Part shown: piece by piece, positions 3,750 to 14,190 of the stretch
Layout: every line of letters starts with the position of its first letter
How positions within the stretch are numbered: the first letter of the stretch is position 1
Assembly: GCF_018304765.1 (NCBI RefSeq)
Contig: NZ_CP072642.1
Location: 851,501 to 915,500, forward strand
Direction: 5' to 3'
Origin: Chloracidobacterium sp. N
GTDB lineage: Bacteria > Acidobacteriota > Blastocatellia > Chloracidobacteriales > Chloracidobacteriaceae
Length of the DNA stretch: 64,000 nt
Made by a program: the position numbers and the translations under genes
The notes under the pieces: model-generated
What the model was told of the DNA's origin: nothing
What the model saw: the letters and a program-made list of their open reading frames with translations, nothing else
The model's database searches: none

Positions 3750-4922
3750 CTACTGCGATTCTTTTTCGAGTTTTTCGAGCGCCCACCGGATTTTCTCGCC
3801 ACCATCCGTGCGGTCCAGCGGGTCCTTGCGCAGCCGGTGACGGAGGGAGAGCGTCGCCACCGCCCGGATGTCATCGCGCGTGACGTGGGCGCGGCCTTCA
3901 AATGCCGCATTTGCCAGAGCGGCATTCAGCAGGGTGATTTCGCCCCGGTGGCCGTCCACATCGAGCGCCACGCAGAGCCGGGCAATGAAGCGCAGGATGT
4001 CATCGGGTACGTCCAGCGTATCCAGCCGGTCGCGCGCCTGAACCAGGCGCGTACGGAGGGCCTGCTGGGCTGGTTCATACTCGGCGCGAAACCCGATGGG
4101 ATCGCGCTCAAAAGCCAGTCGCCGTTTGACGATGGCAATGCGCGTGTCAATGTCGGTAATCGTGCGGATTTCGGCCATAAGGCCAAAACGGTCAAGAAGC
4201 TGCGGGCGCAACTCACCTTCTTCCGGGTTGCCGGAGCCGATGAGCGTGAACCTGGCCGGATGGGCAATCGAAATGCCTTCCCGCTCAACAATGTTGATGC
4301 CGCCGGCGGCGGAGTCGAGCAGGACATCCACGAGGTGGTCTTCGAGCAGGTTGACTTCGTCAATGTAGAGAAAGCCGCGATTGGCCTTGGCCAGCAGCCC
4401 CGGCTCAAAGGCTTTCTGCCCTTGGCTGAGCGCCCGTTCGATGTCGAGCGTGCCGCACAGGCGGTCTTCGGTTGCGCCCAGCGGCAGGTCCACCACCGGA
4501 ACCCGTCCAACCATCGTCGGCAGCTTGGCGCGTGGTTTGGCGTTGCGGCAGGTGTCACACAACCCGGCCGATTTGTCGGGAGGGCAGCGGTAGGGACATT
4601 CGGCCACGAATTCGATTGGCGGCAGGACATCGGCCAGTGCGCGGATGGACGTGGATTTGGCTGTGCCCCGGTGGCCCAGCACCAGAATGCCCCGAATGTT
4701 GGGGTTGACGGCATTCAGCAGCAACGCCCGCTTCATTTCTTCCTGCCCCAGAATGGCCGTGAAGGGAAACACCGGCTGGGCATCCGCCAGCGACTGGGGC
4801 GCGGTGGCATCGGATGAAGTCCCTTTTCTGGTTTTGCGCGTGGTTTTGACGTTGGTGGCCCTAGCGGTTTGCGAGGTGCCGGCGCGCGCCGCAGACGCCG
4901 CAGATGTGGATGATGAAGCCAT
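3750..4922 (-). CDS. bchI: Magnesium chelatase ATPase subunit I (BchI)
   Basis: The protein has 390 residues. BchI is the AAA+ motor of Mg-chelatase. With BchD and BchH it inserts Mg2+ into protoporphyrin IX, the first committed step of bacteriochlorophyll synthesis. After a basic, Ser/Thr/Ala-rich N-terminal extension of about 50 residues come FPFTAILGQEEMKRALLLNAV, Walker A GHRGTAKST (83-91; usually GDRGTGKST, so Asp and Gly are replaced by His and Ala), an insert with Cys residues (CPYRCPP, CDTC), Walker B FLYIDEVN (183-190) and the sensor segment GSGNPEEGELRPQLLDRFG. No bchD or bchH is adjacent. This gene is the strongest evidence for phototrophy. The start is the farthest ATG; the extension is low complexity. 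Confidence 0.95.
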   Translation of the reverse strand: MASSSTSAASAARAGTSQTARATNVKTTRKTRKGTSSDATAPQSLADAQPVFPFTAILGQEEMKRALLLNAVNPNIRGILVLGHRGTAKSTSIRALADVLPPIEFVAECPYRCPPDKSAGLCDTCRNAKPRAKLPTMVGRVPVVDLPLGATEDRLCGTLDIERALSQGQKAFEPGLLAKANRGFLYIDEVNLLEDHLVDVLLDSAAGGINIVEREGISIAHPARFTLIGSGNPEEGELRPQLLDRFGLMAEIRTITDIDTRIAIVKRRLAFERDPIGFRAEYEPAQQALRTRLVQARDRLDTLDVPDDILRFIARLCVALDVDGHRGEITLLNAALANAAFEGRAHVTRDDIRAVATLSLRHRLRKDPLDRTDGGEKIRWALEKLEKESQ

Positions 4923-7928: not shown

Positions 7929-8786
7929 TCAGGCTGGCATCAGGCCCTGGGCGGTTGCCCAGGCTTCAAAGGACTGTTCGAGTTCGTCGAAGGAAGCAAT
8001 CTCGAAGAGTTCTTCCTGCATGTGATGGATTTCGACCGGCGTTTCCGTTATGCGCTCGATGTCGAAGGGAGTCTTCTTCACCTGGTCGGAGAGGGCATGT
8101 TCGATTTCCCCCACGGAGGAGCTGATACCAGCCCCGTAGATTTTCGTCAGCCGTGGGTCGCGGTCAGCGCCAGCGTGCGCCGTGGGGTTGATGAGACCGA
8201 ATTCGACTGTGTACCAGTAAATCCGCCCCAGTTTGACCGTATCGGCTTCGTCCCGCGCGTTAATTCCGGCCTCGCCAAATTTGCGGAAAAACGAGGCAAA
8301 GCGCGGGTTGGTAATCATCGGCAGGTGCCCCATCAGATCGTGGAACATGTCGGGCGCCGGCGTGTATTCGAGTTCGGTCGGATGGCGCAGGAAGTCCGTG
8401 CAGGGAAAGAGCTTCTGGGCCAGCAGCAGGAAAAACGTCGCTTCTGGAACGTAGCCTTCCACCCGAATGCACTGCCATCCGGTGCATGCGCGGAGGCGTT
8501 CGCTCAAATCCGCCAGTCGGGGAACGCGCTCCCGTTCGTACTGGAGCTTTTCACGCCCGACGAGATACTCCTCGCACACCCGTCCCTGGATGGCAACCAA
8601 CTGACGGTCGTAGAGCATGCGCCAGGTCTCGTGCTGCACCGGCGCATAAACCGGCGGCTGGATGTCGCGGCCGATGGTGCCTTCGGGCGACGGGCTGGGC
8701 GCAATGGGCGGTGATGGCTTGGCTTTGAAGACGACTTCCGTGGAGAGCTTTTGGGGAAGGGGGCGAAGGGCTACCGCAGCAGACAT
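7929..8786 (-). CDS. phhA: Phenylalanine 4-monooxygenase
   Basis: The protein has 285 residues. It is a tetrahydropterin- and Fe(II)-dependent aromatic amino acid hydroxylase converting phenylalanine to tyrosine. The 2-His-1-Glu iron ligands are visible: FHDLMGHLPM (His149, His154) and YWYTVEFGL (Glu195). Other conserved segments are YVPEATFF, FLRHPTELEYTPAPD and SSVGEIEHAL. ATG 8786 has a strong AGGAGGAG site. No ACT regulatory domain is present, so it is the short bacterial type. No pterin carbinolamine dehydratase (phhB) gene is adjacent. Confidence 0.95.
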   Translation of the reverse strand: MSAAVALRPLPQKLSTEVVFKAKPSPPIAPSPSPEGTIGRDIQPPVYAPVQHETWRMLYDRQLVAIQGRVCEEYLVGREKLQYERERVPRLADLSERLRACTGWQCIRVEGYVPEATFFLLLAQKLFPCTDFLRHPTELEYTPAPDMFHDLMGHLPMITNPRFASFFRKFGEAGINARDEADTVKLGRIYWYTVEFGLINPTAHAGADRDPRLTKIYGAGISSSVGEIEHALSDQVKKTPFDIERITETPVEIHHMQEELFEIASFDELEQSFEAWATAQGLMPA

Positions 8787-8988
8787 AACAGCTCTCCTCC
8801 TGACAGGATGTGCGACTTGGGGACGCTGACCCGAAGTTAGTGGATCGGCCGCACCAGACCAACGGCCATCTCGGACAAGTTGCCCCAACCAATCTTTATC
8901 GCTGCACGCCGGCTGAAGTGCCGGATTTTTGGCTGAGCCATAGCCTGTTGCTGTGCGCCAGGGATTTGCCGGCTTTCTGAAAAGCATC

Positions 8989-9021
8989 AAAAAAACGTGC
9001 CTGCCGCTTCGGCAGGCACGT
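8989..9021 (-). terminator. Rho-independent terminator of the Rieske/cytochrome b operon
   Basis: On the minus strand a perfect 12-bp stem (ACGTGCCTGCCG pairs with CGGCAGGCACGT, 8995-9006 with 9010-9021; 3-nt loop) is followed by T7 (A-run 8989-8995 on plus). It lies 28 bases past the cytochrome b stop. Confidence 0.9.
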
Positions 9022-9048
9022 CCATTGAGAACCATACAGTCAGGAAGG

Positions 9049-10485
9049 TTACTTGAGCGTGTGAATCCAGTCGGCAATGGCAACCCGGTCGGCAGCCGAA
9101 ACCTGGGGCATAGGCGGCATCTTGGAGGCACCATAGGCCGATGGATTTTCAATCAGCCCGGCAATCTCTTCCTTGCTGCGTCCGGGTTTTTTCGCCACAC
9201 CGGTGAGTTTGGGTCCGGCCGGGCCGCCCTCGCCCTGTTCACCGTGGCAGACGGCGCAGTTTTTCACAAAAGCTTCCGGCGCCGGTGCGGCCAGGACAGC
9301 GGCTTTTTGGCTCGTGTCTTTCGGCTCGAACGGTTCTTTCAGGAAGCGCGCACCTTCCTCTTCCTGGGCTTTGAGCTGGGCGGCGAAGTTCTGTTCGTCA
9401 TCCCGCTTGGCCAGCAGGTGCAGCGTGCCCATGGCGACGAGCAGCGCAACCGTGCCCAGCATGATGAAGGGACGCTTGAGCGGATGCCGCTCCGGGTTGC
9501 GATCAAGAAACGGCAGAAAGGTGATGATGGCCATCACGATGCCGGGAATGATCAGCGAGCCAATGATGGCCGTCGAGCCGGGGAAGTATTTCAGAAGCTG
9601 GAACAGGAACAGGAAGTACCACTCCGGGCGCGCGACATACTGGGTCTGGGACGGGTCAGCTTTGGGCTCAAGCGGGGCGAGTGTCGTCCAGGACAGGTAA
9701 GCCAGGATGGCAAACACCACCAGCGAAAAGACCGCATCCTTGAAGACCTGTCCGGGCCAGAAGGGCTCAACCTTGAACATGGCTTCCTGCTCGGTCATGT
9801 TGAAGGGCCCGGCTGGCTGCGCCTTGCGGAACAGGTAGAGATGGGCGGCGATGCCACCGGCCATCAGCGCCGGCAGCAGAAAGACGTGAACCATGAAAAA
9901 GCGCGAAATGGTAATGGTGCCCATTTCGGTGCCGCCAATGATGATGCGCTTGATCATGTCTCCGAAGATGGGGACTTCGCTGGCAATCCCGACCGTGACC
10001 ACCGTCCCGTAGTACGCTTTCATATCCCACGGCAGCAGGTAGCCGGAAAGTGAAAACGCCAGCACGAGTTGCAGCAGCCCGGCCCCGACCAGCCAGAGCA
10101 GTTCGCGTTTCTGCTTGTAGGCACCCCAGATGACGATCTGGAGAATGTGCAGCACCACCATGATGACCATGGCGCTGGAGCCATAGTGGTGCATACCACG
10201 CATGAAAGCCCCAAAGGGAACTTCCTTCATGATGTACTCGACCGATTTGTGCGCATCTTCGGCGCTCGGCACGTAGTACATTGCCAGGAAAACACCAGTG
10301 ATGGATTGCAGGGCAAAAATGAACAGAAGCGCGCTGCCGAAAGCGTAAGCGTATTTCGTTCCACCTGGAATCGGCTCATCAAGCAGCTCGTGCATGATTT
10401 CACTGATTCCGGCGCGCTCATCAACCCAATCGTAGATTTTCCCTAACGTACCACCATTTGACTGTGGAATTGCCGGAGAAGCCAT
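9049..10485 (-). CDS. Cytochrome b fused to a C-terminal cytochrome c domain (quinol oxidoreductase core)
   Basis: The protein has 478 residues from ATG 10485. Residues 1-360 are a complete cytochrome b of a bc/b6f-type quinol oxidoreductase. Heme His pairs are His99 or His100 with His113 (RGMHHYG...VLH) and His200 with His215 (14 residues between, as in b6-type proteins). The Qo-site PEWY is at 287-290. The N-terminal half ends near residue 225 and the subunit-IV-like half follows in the same chain. After a charged linker (361-400) comes a cytochrome c domain with CAVCH (410-414) and likely Met ligand in KMPPMP (456 or 459). The protein should pass electrons from the quinol pool toward a periplasmic acceptor, probably the photosynthetic chain. 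It lies downstream of the Rieske gene. Confidence 0.94.
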   Translation of the reverse strand: MASPAIPQSNGGTLGKIYDWVDERAGISEIMHELLDEPIPGGTKYAYAFGSALLFIFALQSITGVFLAMYYVPSAEDAHKSVEYIMKEVPFGAFMRGMHHYGSSAMVIMVVLHILQIVIWGAYKQKRELLWLVGAGLLQLVLAFSLSGYLLPWDMKAYYGTVVTVGIASEVPIFGDMIKRIIIGGTEMGTITISRFFMVHVFLLPALMAGGIAAHLYLFRKAQPAGPFNMTEQEAMFKVEPFWPGQVFKDAVFSLVVFAILAYLSWTTLAPLEPKADPSQTQYVARPEWYFLFLFQLLKYFPGSTAIIGSLIIPGIVMAIITFLPFLDRNPERHPLKRPFIMLGTVALLVAMGTLHLLAKRDDEQNFAAQLKAQEEEGARFLKEPFEPKDTSQKAAVLAAPAPEAFVKNCAVCHGEQGEGGPAGPKLTGVAKKPGRSKEEIAGLIENPSAYGASKMPPMPQVSAADRVAIADWIHTLK

Positions 10486-10587
10486 AGCTGAGAAAACCTT
10501 TCTAGGACTGTTTCTGTTACTGAGCAACAGGTGCCGAGGCGTGGGGGCTATCGCCGGCTGAAGCAGTCAGAACTGCCGTGTGTATCT

Positions 10588-11121
10588 TCACGAAAAAACC
10601 TCTTTGGTTGGAAGGAGGTTCTTGAATTTCTGGAAAACGACCTGAAGTTTGCCGTCGGCGACACGGTGTTCGAGCGCATCGAGTCCGCGCGCTGAAGCCG
10701 AACCTGGTTTTTTCTCGCCGCTGACATCAAAGGCGCTGTTGTGACAGGGGCAGAAATACTCATTCCGCTCTGGAATCCAGTTGACTTTGCAGCCCAGATG
10801 CGGGCAGGTCGCCGTAAAGGTCAGAAAGTCATTGCCCCGCTTGACGACCCAGATGGTTTCATCCGAAGATGACTTCACCCACCCGTCCCGAATCTCGATG
10901 GTAATCTTTTTGGCAGTTGGCTTACCTTCTTCAAAATCGGCAACTGAACCGAGGTCAATCCAGTTTTTGTCTTCACCGCCTTCGCCGGTTTTGAGTGCGT
11001 TTCCGACAGCAAATTGAAAAATCGGATAGGCCAGTGCGCCACCAATGCCGGCGCCAATCACAATGGAGCCAAGCCCCATAAACAGACGTTTGGTTTTGTC
11101 CACTTCGGACAGTTCGGACAT
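10588..11121 (-). CDS. Rieske [2Fe-2S] iron-sulfur protein
   Basis: The protein has 177 residues. It is the Rieske subunit of the quinol oxidoreductase encoded just downstream. A single N-terminal membrane anchor spans roughly residues 13-38. Cluster ligands are in CPHLGC (Cys106, His108) and CPCHNSAF (Cys124, His127), with the bridging disulfide Cys111/Cys126. ATG 11121 has AAGGAG at good spacing. The gap to cytochrome b is about 100 bases without a terminator, so the pair is an operon. The cytochrome c role appears to be supplied by the fused domain of the downstream gene. Confidence 0.95.
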   Translation of the reverse strand: MSELSEVDKTKRLFMGLGSIVIGAGIGGALAYPIFQFAVGNALKTGEGGEDKNWIDLGSVADFEEGKPTAKKITIEIRDGWVKSSSDETIWVVKRGNDFLTFTATCPHLGCKVNWIPERNEYFCPCHNSAFDVSGEKKPGSASARGLDALEHRVADGKLQVVFQKFKNLLPTKEVFS

Positions 11122-11315: not shown

Positions 11316-11501
11316 TCAGCCTGGCTCGGCAAAGACGCAGACCGTTTCACCGTCATGGTCGAGAGTGAGGTAAAGCACGTTTGGTTGGCAGCAAACCGTA
11401 CAGTCCTCGATGTACTGCTGCCGGCGGCCGCCGCTCCAGTCAGGAAAGGTGACGTTGGGTTCACCACAGTAGGCACAGGCGTAGGTTGCGGTATCCTGCA
11501 T
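11316..11501 (-). CDS. Small CPXCG-type cysteine-rich zinc-ribbon protein
   Basis: The protein has 61 residues. Two Cys pairs, CAYCG and CTVCC, lie 28 residues apart, and the core reads GRRQQYIEDCTVCCQPN. This matches the small 'CPXCG motif-containing cysteine-rich' family, whose function is unknown. Zinc binding is inferred. ATG 11501 gives the usual length. An in-frame GTG at 11564 would extend it to 6 bases from the lepB stop. It lies downstream of lepB on the same strand. Confidence 0.75.
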   Translation of the reverse strand: MQDTATYACAYCGEPNVTFPDWSGGRRQQYIEDCTVCCQPNVLYLTLDHDGETVCVFAEPG

Positions 11502-11570
11502 GCGCGCCGGGTTCCCTGGTGAGATAAAGTCGGGGGCAAAACTGTGTCCGGGTTTGCTGCGCACACCCGT

Positions 11571-12701
11571 TCACTCAGCGGGGGGGAGTTCCGGCCGGTC
11601 CTCCATCCGTTGCAGACGGCGGAGCGGTTCGAGGACGGTCGGCTCATCCTCGATGAAGCCCATCTCGCTTACCGGCCAGTAGCGATAGACCGCCTTGCCA
11701 TAGATGTACATTTCCGGGACGAGTCCCCAGTTGCGACTGTCGTTGCTGGCGTCGCGGTTGTCGCCCATCACGAAGTAGTGGTGGGGTTCAACCACCCATG
11801 TCCGGGGTGGACTGACAATCGTCGTGTAGTCGCTCGACAGATAACCTTCCGGCACGAGCTTGCCGTTGATGTAAAGCTTGCCGTTGGCCAGGGTGACTTC
11901 ATCACCGGGCAGGCCAATCACACGTTTGATGAAGCTTTCCTGGGGATTTTTGGGGTAGTAGAACACGACAATGTCGCCACGCTCGATTTTGGAAAAGTTG
12001 TAGATGAAGCGGTTGACGAACAGGCGCTCCCCCTCATGCAGATGCGGCAGCATGCTCGTGCCTTTGACATAGACGGGCTGAATGACGAAAAGCCCGATGA
12101 GCAGCGCGATGACGAGCGCCAGAAGCACATCCCGTCCGATGCTTAACCCTTCCCGTACCCAGTGTTTCCAGGCGGGCGACGCGCCAGTGAACGTGGAAAT
12201 GACCACGCCGGCTTCATCGCCCAGGCCATGGCCGGAAGATGACTTATGGTCATCCACCGTCCACAGCGGTCGGAATACAGGCTGTGACCAGGCATCCGCC
12301 GGCCCCGAAGCCGCCATGACCGCATCGGTCAGGCACGATGCGGCGGCTTCCGGCGCGGCCACACCCCATCCGTTCTGGGGGATAGCCGTTCCTGTGGTCT
12401 GCGCCAACGTCTCAGAGCTGGTTTCTGTGGTGACGTCATCCAGTGGGACGATTTCCGGCTGACTCCCTTCTGATTGCGGAAGCCGGCCCGGGGCCATCTC
12501 ATCGGCCGGAGCCGTGGCGTCCCCGTTCGCCAAGGCTTCCACTTCAGGCCGGAAGACGCTGGTCGGTGCAGCTCCATTCCGGGGGCTATCCACAAGCCGC
12601 ATCCCCGGTAACGGTTCGGCCGTTCCGTGGTTGGAAAACGGGTATCCAGAGAGCTGATGGTCGGAGAACTGATCGTCGGGGAAATCGTCGCGCATCATCA
12701 T
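11571..12701 (-). CDS. lepB: Signal peptidase I with a long N-terminal extension
   Basis: From ATG 12701 the protein has 376 residues. The catalytic half is canonical: one membrane segment (DVLLALVIALLIGLFVIQPV), catalytic Ser216 in KGTSMLPHL, catalytic Lys259 in FIKRVIGLPGD, and the box GDNRDASNDSRNWG. It removes signal peptides of exported proteins. Upstream lie about 175 hydrophilic, low-complexity residues rich in Asp, Pro, Ala and Thr that should face the cytoplasm. Typical enzymes begin shortly before the membrane segment. A TTG at 12803 could extend it further and would overlap the preceding gene by 29 bases. Start choice is uncertain. Confidence 0.88.
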   Translation of the reverse strand: MMMRDDFPDDQFSDHQLSGYPFSNHGTAEPLPGMRLVDSPRNGAAPTSVFRPEVEALANGDATAPADEMAPGRLPQSEGSQPEIVPLDDVTTETSSETLAQTTGTAIPQNGWGVAAPEAAASCLTDAVMAASGPADAWSQPVFRPLWTVDDHKSSSGHGLGDEAGVVISTFTGASPAWKHWVREGLSIGRDVLLALVIALLIGLFVIQPVYVKGTSMLPHLHEGERLFVNRFIYNFSKIERGDIVVFYYPKNPQESFIKRVIGLPGDEVTLANGKLYINGKLVPEGYLSSDYTTIVSPPRTWVVEPHHYFVMGDNRDASNDSRNWGLVPEMYIYGKAVYRYWPVSEMGFIEDEPTVLEPLRRLQRMEDRPELPPAE

Positions 12702-12774
12702 CCACTCTGCATCCTCATAAGGTTGGCAGGTCAGGCCAGGCGGCAAGACATTGACATCCCAAGGTGTATTCCTA

Positions 12775-14190
12775 TCACGGCTGGATGGTTTCGACGGTTC
12801 CAAATTTGGCCAAGCTGGCCTGTAGCGAAGCCGTCCCGCCAGAGACGATGATCAACCGCCCACGTCCCAGCATCTCACGCGCCAGCGCATGACAATCCGC
12901 CGGTGTTACGGCTGCTACGCGGTTGAGTATGTCAGCTTCGGCTGTTGGACTGCGGCCGTAGGTTTCCAGTCGTGCCAGACGCTGTGCCAGATCACGGTTG
13001 TTGGGCACACGGTCACGGGACGCCGATGCGACAGCCGCCTGGGCCGCACGAACATCGGCCTCACCCGGTGGTGTATCCCGCAGTTCGCTGAGAAGCTGAA
13101 GGAGCCGTTCGATTTGCGCCGGGGCCGTTTCCGGGGTGCAGACTCCGCTGAGCATCCACGGGCTGTCCGGGAGCCGGCGGTGGGAAAGTGTCAATTGCCA
13201 GGGTTGGCAGCGGCGCTTGAGCAACTCCGTCAGCACCAGCCACGTGGCGCGGGTCTCGGCGGTAGCTTCCGGCAGAATGCCGCCCAGTCGCACCTGAACC
13301 TGTCCGCCGGAGGGTCCGGTCTGAGGTTGGTGCACCAGGCGAAGCTGATCTGGAGGGTTGGGCGGCAGGAAGGTCGCCGGCGCCGGCTTGCCCTTCGCCC
13401 AGCCGCCAAAGGCGCGGCGTGTGACACCCCGTACCTGGGAGGCGGTGATGTCACCAACGATGATGACAGCCGCATTGTTGGGAAGCCAGTGCCGGCGGTA
13501 AAAATCGGCGACATCGGCCGGCGTAATCGCGGCAACGCTCTCCGGCGTCCCCAGCAGATTGTGATGGTAGGGATGGGCGTCATAGAGAGTCTGGAAAAAC
13601 AGCGCGTCAGCCGCGGCTTCCTCGGTCTGGGCCGCACGGGCGGCCGCGATGGCCGCTTCCTGAAAGGGCTTGAAGCGGGTTTCGGCAACATCGCGCCGGG
13701 CCAGATCGGGCGTCGTCACCAGCCGTCCCAGCAAATCAATCAGGGTTGCCGCCTGGCGCGCTGGTCCCGTCACCAGAAGGCAGGTCTGGTCCCAGTCCAC
13801 ATCAACTTGAAGCTGGGCTTCGGCTTCTTCCAGTTCAAGCCGCACCCGTTCGGCGTCGTAGCCACCGCCGCCGCCACGGATACACTCCGCCGTCAGGCGG
13901 GCCAATCCTGCCTTACCCACCCGGTCAAACGTCGCGCCCACCTTGATGACGACCGCCACGGCGACGGAGGTCGAGCCGGGGCGTTCCGTCACCAGGATGG
14001 GCAGCCCGGTCAGCAGGGTATCCCGTTGAACCGGGGGAAGTTCATTGTCCGGCAGGGATTCCGGCTTCAGGGGGGCTTGCTGTGCTTGTGCGTTGTTGGT
14101 CACAAGGTTCCCAGGCATTCCCACCAGCAGCAGCCAGCCAGTGAGAAACCATAGTATCCAGCGGCGGGAACACCTCGGCGCAAAAGGCAT
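12775..14190 (-). CDS. M16-family (pitrilysin-like) protein lacking the zinc motif
   Basis: The protein has 471 residues from ATG 14190. The signal peptide is RRWILWFLTGWLLLVGM ending near NAQAQQA. The fold is that of M16 peptidases: N-terminal 'LPILVTERPGSTSVAVAVVIKVGA', a middle YDAHPYHHNLLGTPESVAAIT, and WLPNNAAVIIVGDI beginning the second half. The catalytic HxxEH is absent. The corresponding place reads GLARLTAECIRGG, so the protein is probably non-catalytic, like the inactive partner of two-subunit M16 enzymes or mitochondrial core proteins. No active partner is adjacent. It is exported and sits upstream of signal peptidase I. Confidence 0.85.
   Translation of the reverse strand: MPFAPRCSRRWILWFLTGWLLLVGMPGNLVTNNAQAQQAPLKPESLPDNELPPVQRDTLLTGLPILVTERPGSTSVAVAVVIKVGATFDRVGKAGLARLTAECIRGGGGGYDAERVRLELEEAEAQLQVDVDWDQTCLLVTGPARQAATLIDLLGRLVTTPDLARRDVAETRFKPFQEAAIAAARAAQTEEAAADALFFQTLYDAHPYHHNLLGTPESVAAITPADVADFYRRHWLPNNAAVIIVGDITASQVRGVTRRAFGGWAKGKPAPATFLPPNPPDQLRLVHQPQTGPSGGQVQVRLGGILPEATAETRATWLVLTELLKRRCQPWQLTLSHRRLPDSPWMLSGVCTPETAPAQIERLLQLLSELRDTPPGEADVRAAQAAVASASRDRVPNNRDLAQRLARLETYGRSPTAEADILNRVAAVTPADCHALAREMLGRGRLIIVSGGTASLQASLAKFGTVETIQP

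Follow-up and report, generated by a model that had tools for sequence, protein, structure and literature searches.

A Rieske gene and a cytochrome b–c fusion gene of Chloracidobacterium sp. N predict a two-gene complex III of a widely shared form

Results and discussion

Gene pair and its surroundings

The window (the whole stretch of 64,000 nucleotides of Chloracidobacterium sp. N that was analysed) belongs to a genome of 3.715 Mb in two contigs. It contains a Rieske gene and, downstream of it on the same minus strand, a gene encoding cytochrome b and cytochrome c in a single frame (Table 1). Both genes lie where an earlier note on this DNA had placed them, and the fusion frame scores 157 bits for Cytochrome_B, 44 bits for Cytochrom_B_C and 40.7 bits for Cytochrom_C, all above the Pfam cut-offs. 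The start of the fusion is likelier to be the ATG at 10485 (MASPAIPQ...), judged from the letters, than the listed TTG at 10527, a possible alternative that would add 14 residues (the 492-aa reading); the Rieske stop lies 102 nt from this ATG. The best solved sequence relatives of the Rieske protein are 9rk3_A (labelled as a cytochrome b6-f-like Rieske protein, 44 bits) and the Rieske proteins of b6f complexes.

Table 1. Features of the gene pair (window positions)
Feature	Positions	Strand	Description
Rieske [2Fe-2S] protein	10588–11121	−	177 aa; N-terminal hydrophobic stretch; CPHLGC...CPCH; Pfam Rieske 33.1 bits (cut-off 20.3)
Cytochrome b–c fusion	9049–10485	−	478 aa from ATG 10485; Pfam PF00033, PF00032 and PF00034 in a single frame
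PEWY motif, quinol-oxidation (Qo) site	9616–9627	−	Residues 287–290 of the fusion
C-terminal class I cytochrome c domain	9052–9303	−	Residues 395–478; Pfam Cytochrom_C 40.7 bits
CAVCH heme c attachment motif	9244–9258	−	Residues 410–414; from the sequence
Intrinsic terminator behind both genes	8993–9023	−	14-pair stem, then T's

The strong terminator described in the earlier note is borne out by a stem energy of −28 kcal/mol compared with −10.75 ± 2.62 for shuffled sequences (z −6.58), a value equalled by none of 200 shuffles. The region contains 4 terminator-like sites against a chance mean of 3.8, which is not above chance, so it is the strength of the 8993–9023 stem by itself that argues for a terminator. 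Upstream of the Rieske gene, 2 open reading frames (ORFs) follow on the same strand (11316–11564 and a signal peptidase ORF, 11571–12803), and a promoter scan of the region revealed no sigma-70-like promoter on the minus strand; the 5′ end of the transcript is therefore undefined.

Beyond the terminator, an ORF on the same strand (7929–9152) contains a biopterin-dependent aromatic amino acid hydroxylase domain (Pfam); its listed start overlaps the fusion gene, and its true start is probably further in. Another ORF (3750–4922) encodes a magnesium-chelatase-like AAA ATPase (Pfam Mg_chelatase and AAA_lid_2), which is possibly BchI-like. Among the 24 window ORFs scanned with Pfam, a subset of the ORFs of the window, this ATPase was the only pigment-related candidate; it lies approximately 4 kb off and outside the operon, and photosynthesis genes beside the operon were thus rejected.

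Conserved residues and predicted structure of the fusion

The heme-b histidines of the fusion are His99 and His113 (13 residues between) and His200 and His215 (14 between). All 4 histidines are present in 111 of 111 aligned rows, and so is the 13/14 spacing, in unfused homologues as well. The PEWY motif, the Qo-site motif of cytochrome b, is present in 90 of the 111 rows and its tryptophan in all of them. PPWY is found in 4 of 111 rows and PPWF in 1; PPWF and PPWY replace PEWY in 2 relatives of a single family (L009 and L010, family f7). In the c domain, CxxCH and a putative axial methionine (Met456) are invariant in 2 alignments of selected fused proteins, which have 14 and 23 rows counting that of the window.

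In the structure model of the fusion (mean pLDDT 85, pTM 0.75), 7 long helices precede a small c domain, and the segment joining the last of them to the c domain contains no additional long helix. The linker and the c domain (from approximately residue 391) are modelled less confidently, with values of 47–79 in 10-residue blocks. With 7 long helices, the c domain would lie across the membrane from the N-terminus. The top Foldseek matches of the model are cytochrome b chains of bc1 complexes, and the best solved sequence relatives are approximately equal: a cytochrome b6 (156 bits, residues 29–241 of the 492-aa reading) and 6kls_B (155.5 bits, residues 26–372), the complex III cytochrome b of a hyperthermophile.

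Assignment to the complex III superfamily

The gene pair has the following features of the complex III superfamily: (i) the 4 histidines 99, 113, 200 and 215; (ii) PEWY at residues 287–290; and (iii) an adjoining Rieske gene. Members of the superfamily also have a c-type heme domain on the positive side; the gene pair encodes a fused mono-heme domain (Pfam 40.7 bits), and the 7 modelled helices would put it there. The window also shares with fused b/c complexes III a Rieske gene beside a single b and c chain. The earlier note had the mono-heme CAVCH domain stand in place of a separate c1 or f subunit, and the profile searches agree with this. The cytochrome c1 profile (PF02167) has no match in the genome, and the same profile matches 1 of 14 control genomes (Caulobacter). 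The cytochrome f profile (PF01333) has none above its cut-off, its one match scoring 25.9 bits against 30.4 and lying within a 1467-aa frame. A c1 or f gene elsewhere in the genome was therefore rejected, none exceeding the cut-off of either profile.

The second heme pair had been described as having b6-type spacing. The 14 residues, which we take to be the b6-type spacing, are indeed there, but they are not diagnostic, as the same spacing is found in all rows of the alignment and the cysteine of heme c(n)/c(i) is missing. This cysteine holds heme c(n) in b6; the fusion has Ala48 at the aligned column, and 5 of the 111 rows, all of them Bacillus-type split proteins, have the cysteine. A b6f complex, as the spacing might have suggested, was rejected on these 2 grounds. 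Moreover, cytochrome b6f has b6 and subunit IV in split genes, whereas the window has one chain, and neither a cytochrome f above the profile cut-off nor the heme c(n) cysteine, both features of b6f, is found here. In cytochrome bc1, 13 residues separate the second pair of heme ligands and the helices number 8; by contrast, the fusion has a spacing of 14 in the 111-row alignment and 7 long helices in the model, and its genome has no PF02167 c1.

Distribution of the fusion

In the phylum, 242 of 396 genomes gave a match at E ≤ 1e-20 and 154 gave none; the matches include non-fusions, and many of the lower-scoring ones align over the b part only. The 30 best-scoring loci (L004–L033) were taken for the fusion check. 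CxxCH follows cytochrome b in frame in all 30, and a same-strand frame with a Rieske motif adjoins or overlaps in 29, the exception beginning at a contig end; the regular expression used for this neighbour search missed the second Rieske protein of the window's own genome (CTHLAC). Counted as CxxCH motifs in frames read from stop to stop, some of which overlap the Rieske frame, c heme motifs number one in 15 of these loci, two in 11 and four in 4. Frames with four c-type heme motifs behind one cytochrome b measure 865–918 aa from stop to stop in some Acidobacteriota (L021–L024 and L044–L046).

In the set of named genomes, the best 80 loci listed, as ranked by tblastn to the fused query, comprise 57 fused b–c loci, 7 split b6/IV-c loci and 16 without a fused c; since a fused query set the order of the list and only its best 80 are included, the proportion of 57 in 80 is higher than the fusion's general frequency. 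A same-strand Rieske-motif frame adjoins or overlaps each of the 57. These span 12 named phylum-level groups and 3 unassigned records: Acidobacteriota (17), Nitrospirota (10), Planctomycetota (7), Verrucomicrobiota (7), Vulcanimicrobiota (4), Myxococcota (2), Pseudomonadota (2), and Armatimonadota, Bacillota, Gemmatimonadota, FCPU426 and Fidelibacterota (1 each), with many of the named records being metagenome bins and the single-record phyla accordingly weak. One heme motif is present in 21 of the 57 frames, two in 32, four in 3 and fifteen in 1. In the last of these, an Armatimonadota record (L058:5974–8196), cytochrome b is followed by the 15 in-frame CxxCH in a mostly regular array, which could be a repeat artefact.

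The earlier note held that common occurrence of the fusion would count against its reading. The fusion is common among these relatives and already described in print (see below), so the view that it is unusual is not supported, and the fusion as a novel arrangement was rejected on the same grounds. It appears to be a type of complex III that many lineages share rather than a phototroph's invention.

Descent of the b and c domains

In a tree of 109 rows, the window cytochrome b groups with those of 2 genomes of the same family (SH-aLRT 100) within a 29-row clade (98); the tree is of a quick kind computed without bootstraps, leaves out 2 near-duplicates of the window (L005 and L006) and includes no Chlorobi or heliobacterial sequences. 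The named members of the clade are Acidobacteriota, except Bacterium HR08, which has no assigned phylum. The same-family fused proteins are 59–62% identical to that of the window. In the c-domain comparison, in which multi-heme proteins were represented by the stretch around the last heme, the nearest relatives belong to the same genus and then to the fused proteins of the same 2 same-family genomes; PscY and PscX, 2 mono-heme cytochromes of the window's own genome (described below), rank 83 and 96 of 101 rows by likeness. The earlier note had proposed a phylogeny of both domains, and both thus lead to the same genus and the same 2 genomes. Since their kin reside in the same genomes, b and c appear to have travelled together. 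The scores of the 2 domains to the window also correlate over 90 loci (Spearman 0.44), which is only suggestive, as shared ancestry is ignored.

Predicted function

We conclude that the gene pair very probably encodes a two-gene fused b/c-type complex III (quinol:cytochrome c oxidoreductase), a form common in Acidobacteriota and several other phyla, and we predict with high confidence that this is a working complex III of the fused b/c kind. In the proposed mechanism, quinol would be oxidised at the Qo site (PEWY). One electron would pass through the Rieske cluster to the tethered mono-heme c domain at the outer membrane face, and the other would reach a quinone at the inner side by way of the 2 b hemes (Q-cycle). 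Taking the role of c1 or f, the c domain would in turn reduce a small cytochrome c or a different periplasmic acceptor, which could lead to an oxidase or, via PscX and PscY, to the reaction centre. The redox path, the topology and the acceptor are all inferred.

Phototroph context and candidate donors to the reaction centre

The genome contains one match to the PsaA/PsaB family of type I reaction centres, in an 869-aa frame. On the same strand, approximately 3.4 kb on and with other frames between, are 2 mono-heme cytochromes that match the structures of PscX and PscY; PscY differs from the deposited C. thermophilum chain at 5 of 221 positions (approximately 98% identical). The structures 7VZG and 7VZR were published for C. 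thermophilum by Dong et al. 2022, who resolve PscX and PscY; the terms "Rieske" and "complex III" are absent from the main text of that paper. The reaction-centre and PscX/PscY matches identify the organism as a Chloracidobacterium close to C. thermophilum and as a phototroph, as the earlier note had guessed. The reaction-centre match was found in 3 of 14 genomes tested, all of the window's genus, and in neither of the 2 same-family genomes.

Two further systems in the genome bear on electron supply. The earlier note described an operon with only the 2 genes of this complex; a second Rieske/cytochrome b operon is located outside the window (contig C1, approximately 1.06 Mb; L003:6057–10202, approximately 1.060–1.064 Mb). 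It encodes a Rieske protein, an unfused cytochrome b of 378 aa and a 502-aa protein whose N-terminal part is CydA-like (cytochrome bd subunit I-like; Pfam Cyt_bd_oxida_I, 77.5 bits) and which has one C-terminal CxxCH. Homologues of this CydA-like c protein are present in 88 of the 396 phylum genomes. Of the best 30 loci, the 10 at no less than 50% identity have a cytochrome b beside them, and the 20 of lower identity have none within flanks of approximately 1.5 kb. The pairing of a Rieske/b complex with a bd-like c protein may merit separate study. A third Rieske match (C1, approximately 2.41 Mb) was rejected as a rival subunit; it is a short frame of 132 aa with neither of the genome's 2 cytochrome b matches near.

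The other system is an ACIII-like cluster on the other contig, consisting of an iron–sulfur protein, an NrfD-like protein and a cytochrome c; COX2-c and the only COX1 match of the genome share its stretch and strand. A mobile carrier could be supplied by 3 small mono-heme cytochromes encoded elsewhere in the genome. The candidate donors to the reaction centre are thus the fused complex, the second Rieske/b operon with its CydA-like c protein and the ACIII-like complex. The question of how the Chloracidobacterium reaction centre is re-reduced is narrowed to these 3 named candidates.

We consider it doubtful, though possible, that the reaction centre receives its electrons mainly from the fused complex. 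Under this explanation it would be the photosynthetic cyclic complex, reducing PscX/PscY and through them P840, with the ACIII-like complex serving aerobic respiration; this division of labour is likewise improbable, though the strongest of the alternatives. It would account for a reaction-centre gene with PscX and PscY close by on its strand, and for a sole COX1 match placed beside the ACIII-like cluster, the Rieske complexes having no obvious oxidase partner. However, all 9 class relatives tested that have no reaction-centre match (G051, G063, G259, G339, G009, G267, G283, G211 and G383) carry both the fused gene and the ACIII-like NrfD gene, the latter being present in 12 of 12 genomes searched. 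The pair therefore exists without phototrophy and is not a mark of it; the fusion gene either predates phototrophy in the lineage or was kept by relatives without phototrophy. In addition, the second Rieske/b operon is also a candidate, and on their shared contig the window operon and the reaction-centre gene are approximately 1.7 Mb apart.

With lower probability still, the second operon would encode the photosynthetic complex and the fused one would be respiratory. All 3 reaction-centre genomes encode its CydA-like c protein, and the 2 same-family genomes lacking a reaction-centre match gave no match to it, but this protein occurs together with an adjoining cytochrome b in a genome of the same order that has no reaction-centre match (G259, 69% identity), and the cytochrome b linkage seen in 10 of the best 30 loci is spread over 10 genomes of several families. 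The linkage thus does not track phototrophy.

Another explanation, which we consider unlikely, is that cytochrome b and cytochrome c are made as one fused precursor and then cut apart, giving a mature complex of 3 subunits. The b/c1 fusion of Bradyrhizobium is cleaved into b and c after translation, and the low-confidence linker in our model would suit such a site. The Bradyrhizobium fused b/c1 is cited in PMC4013037. The model speaks against cleavage: since it shows no additional long helix after the last b helix, nothing would anchor the c domain in the membrane once it was released. Least probable of all, by our estimate, is direct reduction of PscX by the tethered c domain docked on the reaction centre, in a cyclic photosynthetic chain in which no soluble cytochrome takes part. 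Most likely, the fused complex is an ordinary quinol:cytochrome c oxidoreductase.

Comparison with described systems

The literature searched yielded no paper on this Chloracidobacterium operon, with the genome paper (Garcia Costas 2012) outside its coverage. Similar gene pairs are described in other bacteria. The CIII_2 of Nitrospira moscoviensis, consisting of a Rieske gene and a fused cytochrome b/c, is called complex III (PMC6606698). Our N. moscoviensis locus (L049) fits it, having a Rieske frame, a 448-aa stop-to-stop b–c frame with one heme motif and a 301-aa frame with two. Unlike the window, Nitrospira has the extra diheme cytochrome c gene, and its cytochrome b is on a separate branch of the tree. 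In Kuenenia stuttgartiensis, the Kuste3096–3097 complex likewise combines a Rieske protein with a cytochrome b that has its c domain attached (PMC12954380); the likeness is drawn from the printed description, and the c part has two hemes there and one here. Fused b/c1 proteins have also been reported in Bradyrhizobiaceae, some Rhodospirillales and Planctomycetes (PMC4013037).

In the Bacillus-type Rieske/b6/IV-cytochrome c arrangement, the c domain is also fused C-terminally, in this case to subunit IV, and the 13/14 histidine spacing is shared with the window. We take this arrangement to be the one named QcrABC. It differs in having b6 and IV-c in 2 frames and in possessing the c(n) cysteine (all 5 such Bacillota rows), whereas the window has one chain without this cysteine; 2 other split rows (a Chloroflexus and an Acidimicrobiaceae record) also have no heme c(n) cysteine. 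Within the Acidobacteriota, another small cytochrome c frame precedes the Rieske gene in 4 loci (L039 and L041–L043), unlike in the window. Other Acidobacteriota carry a Rieske gene and a b–c fusion as in the window, and it is the number of c heme motifs (one, two or four) that varies among them.
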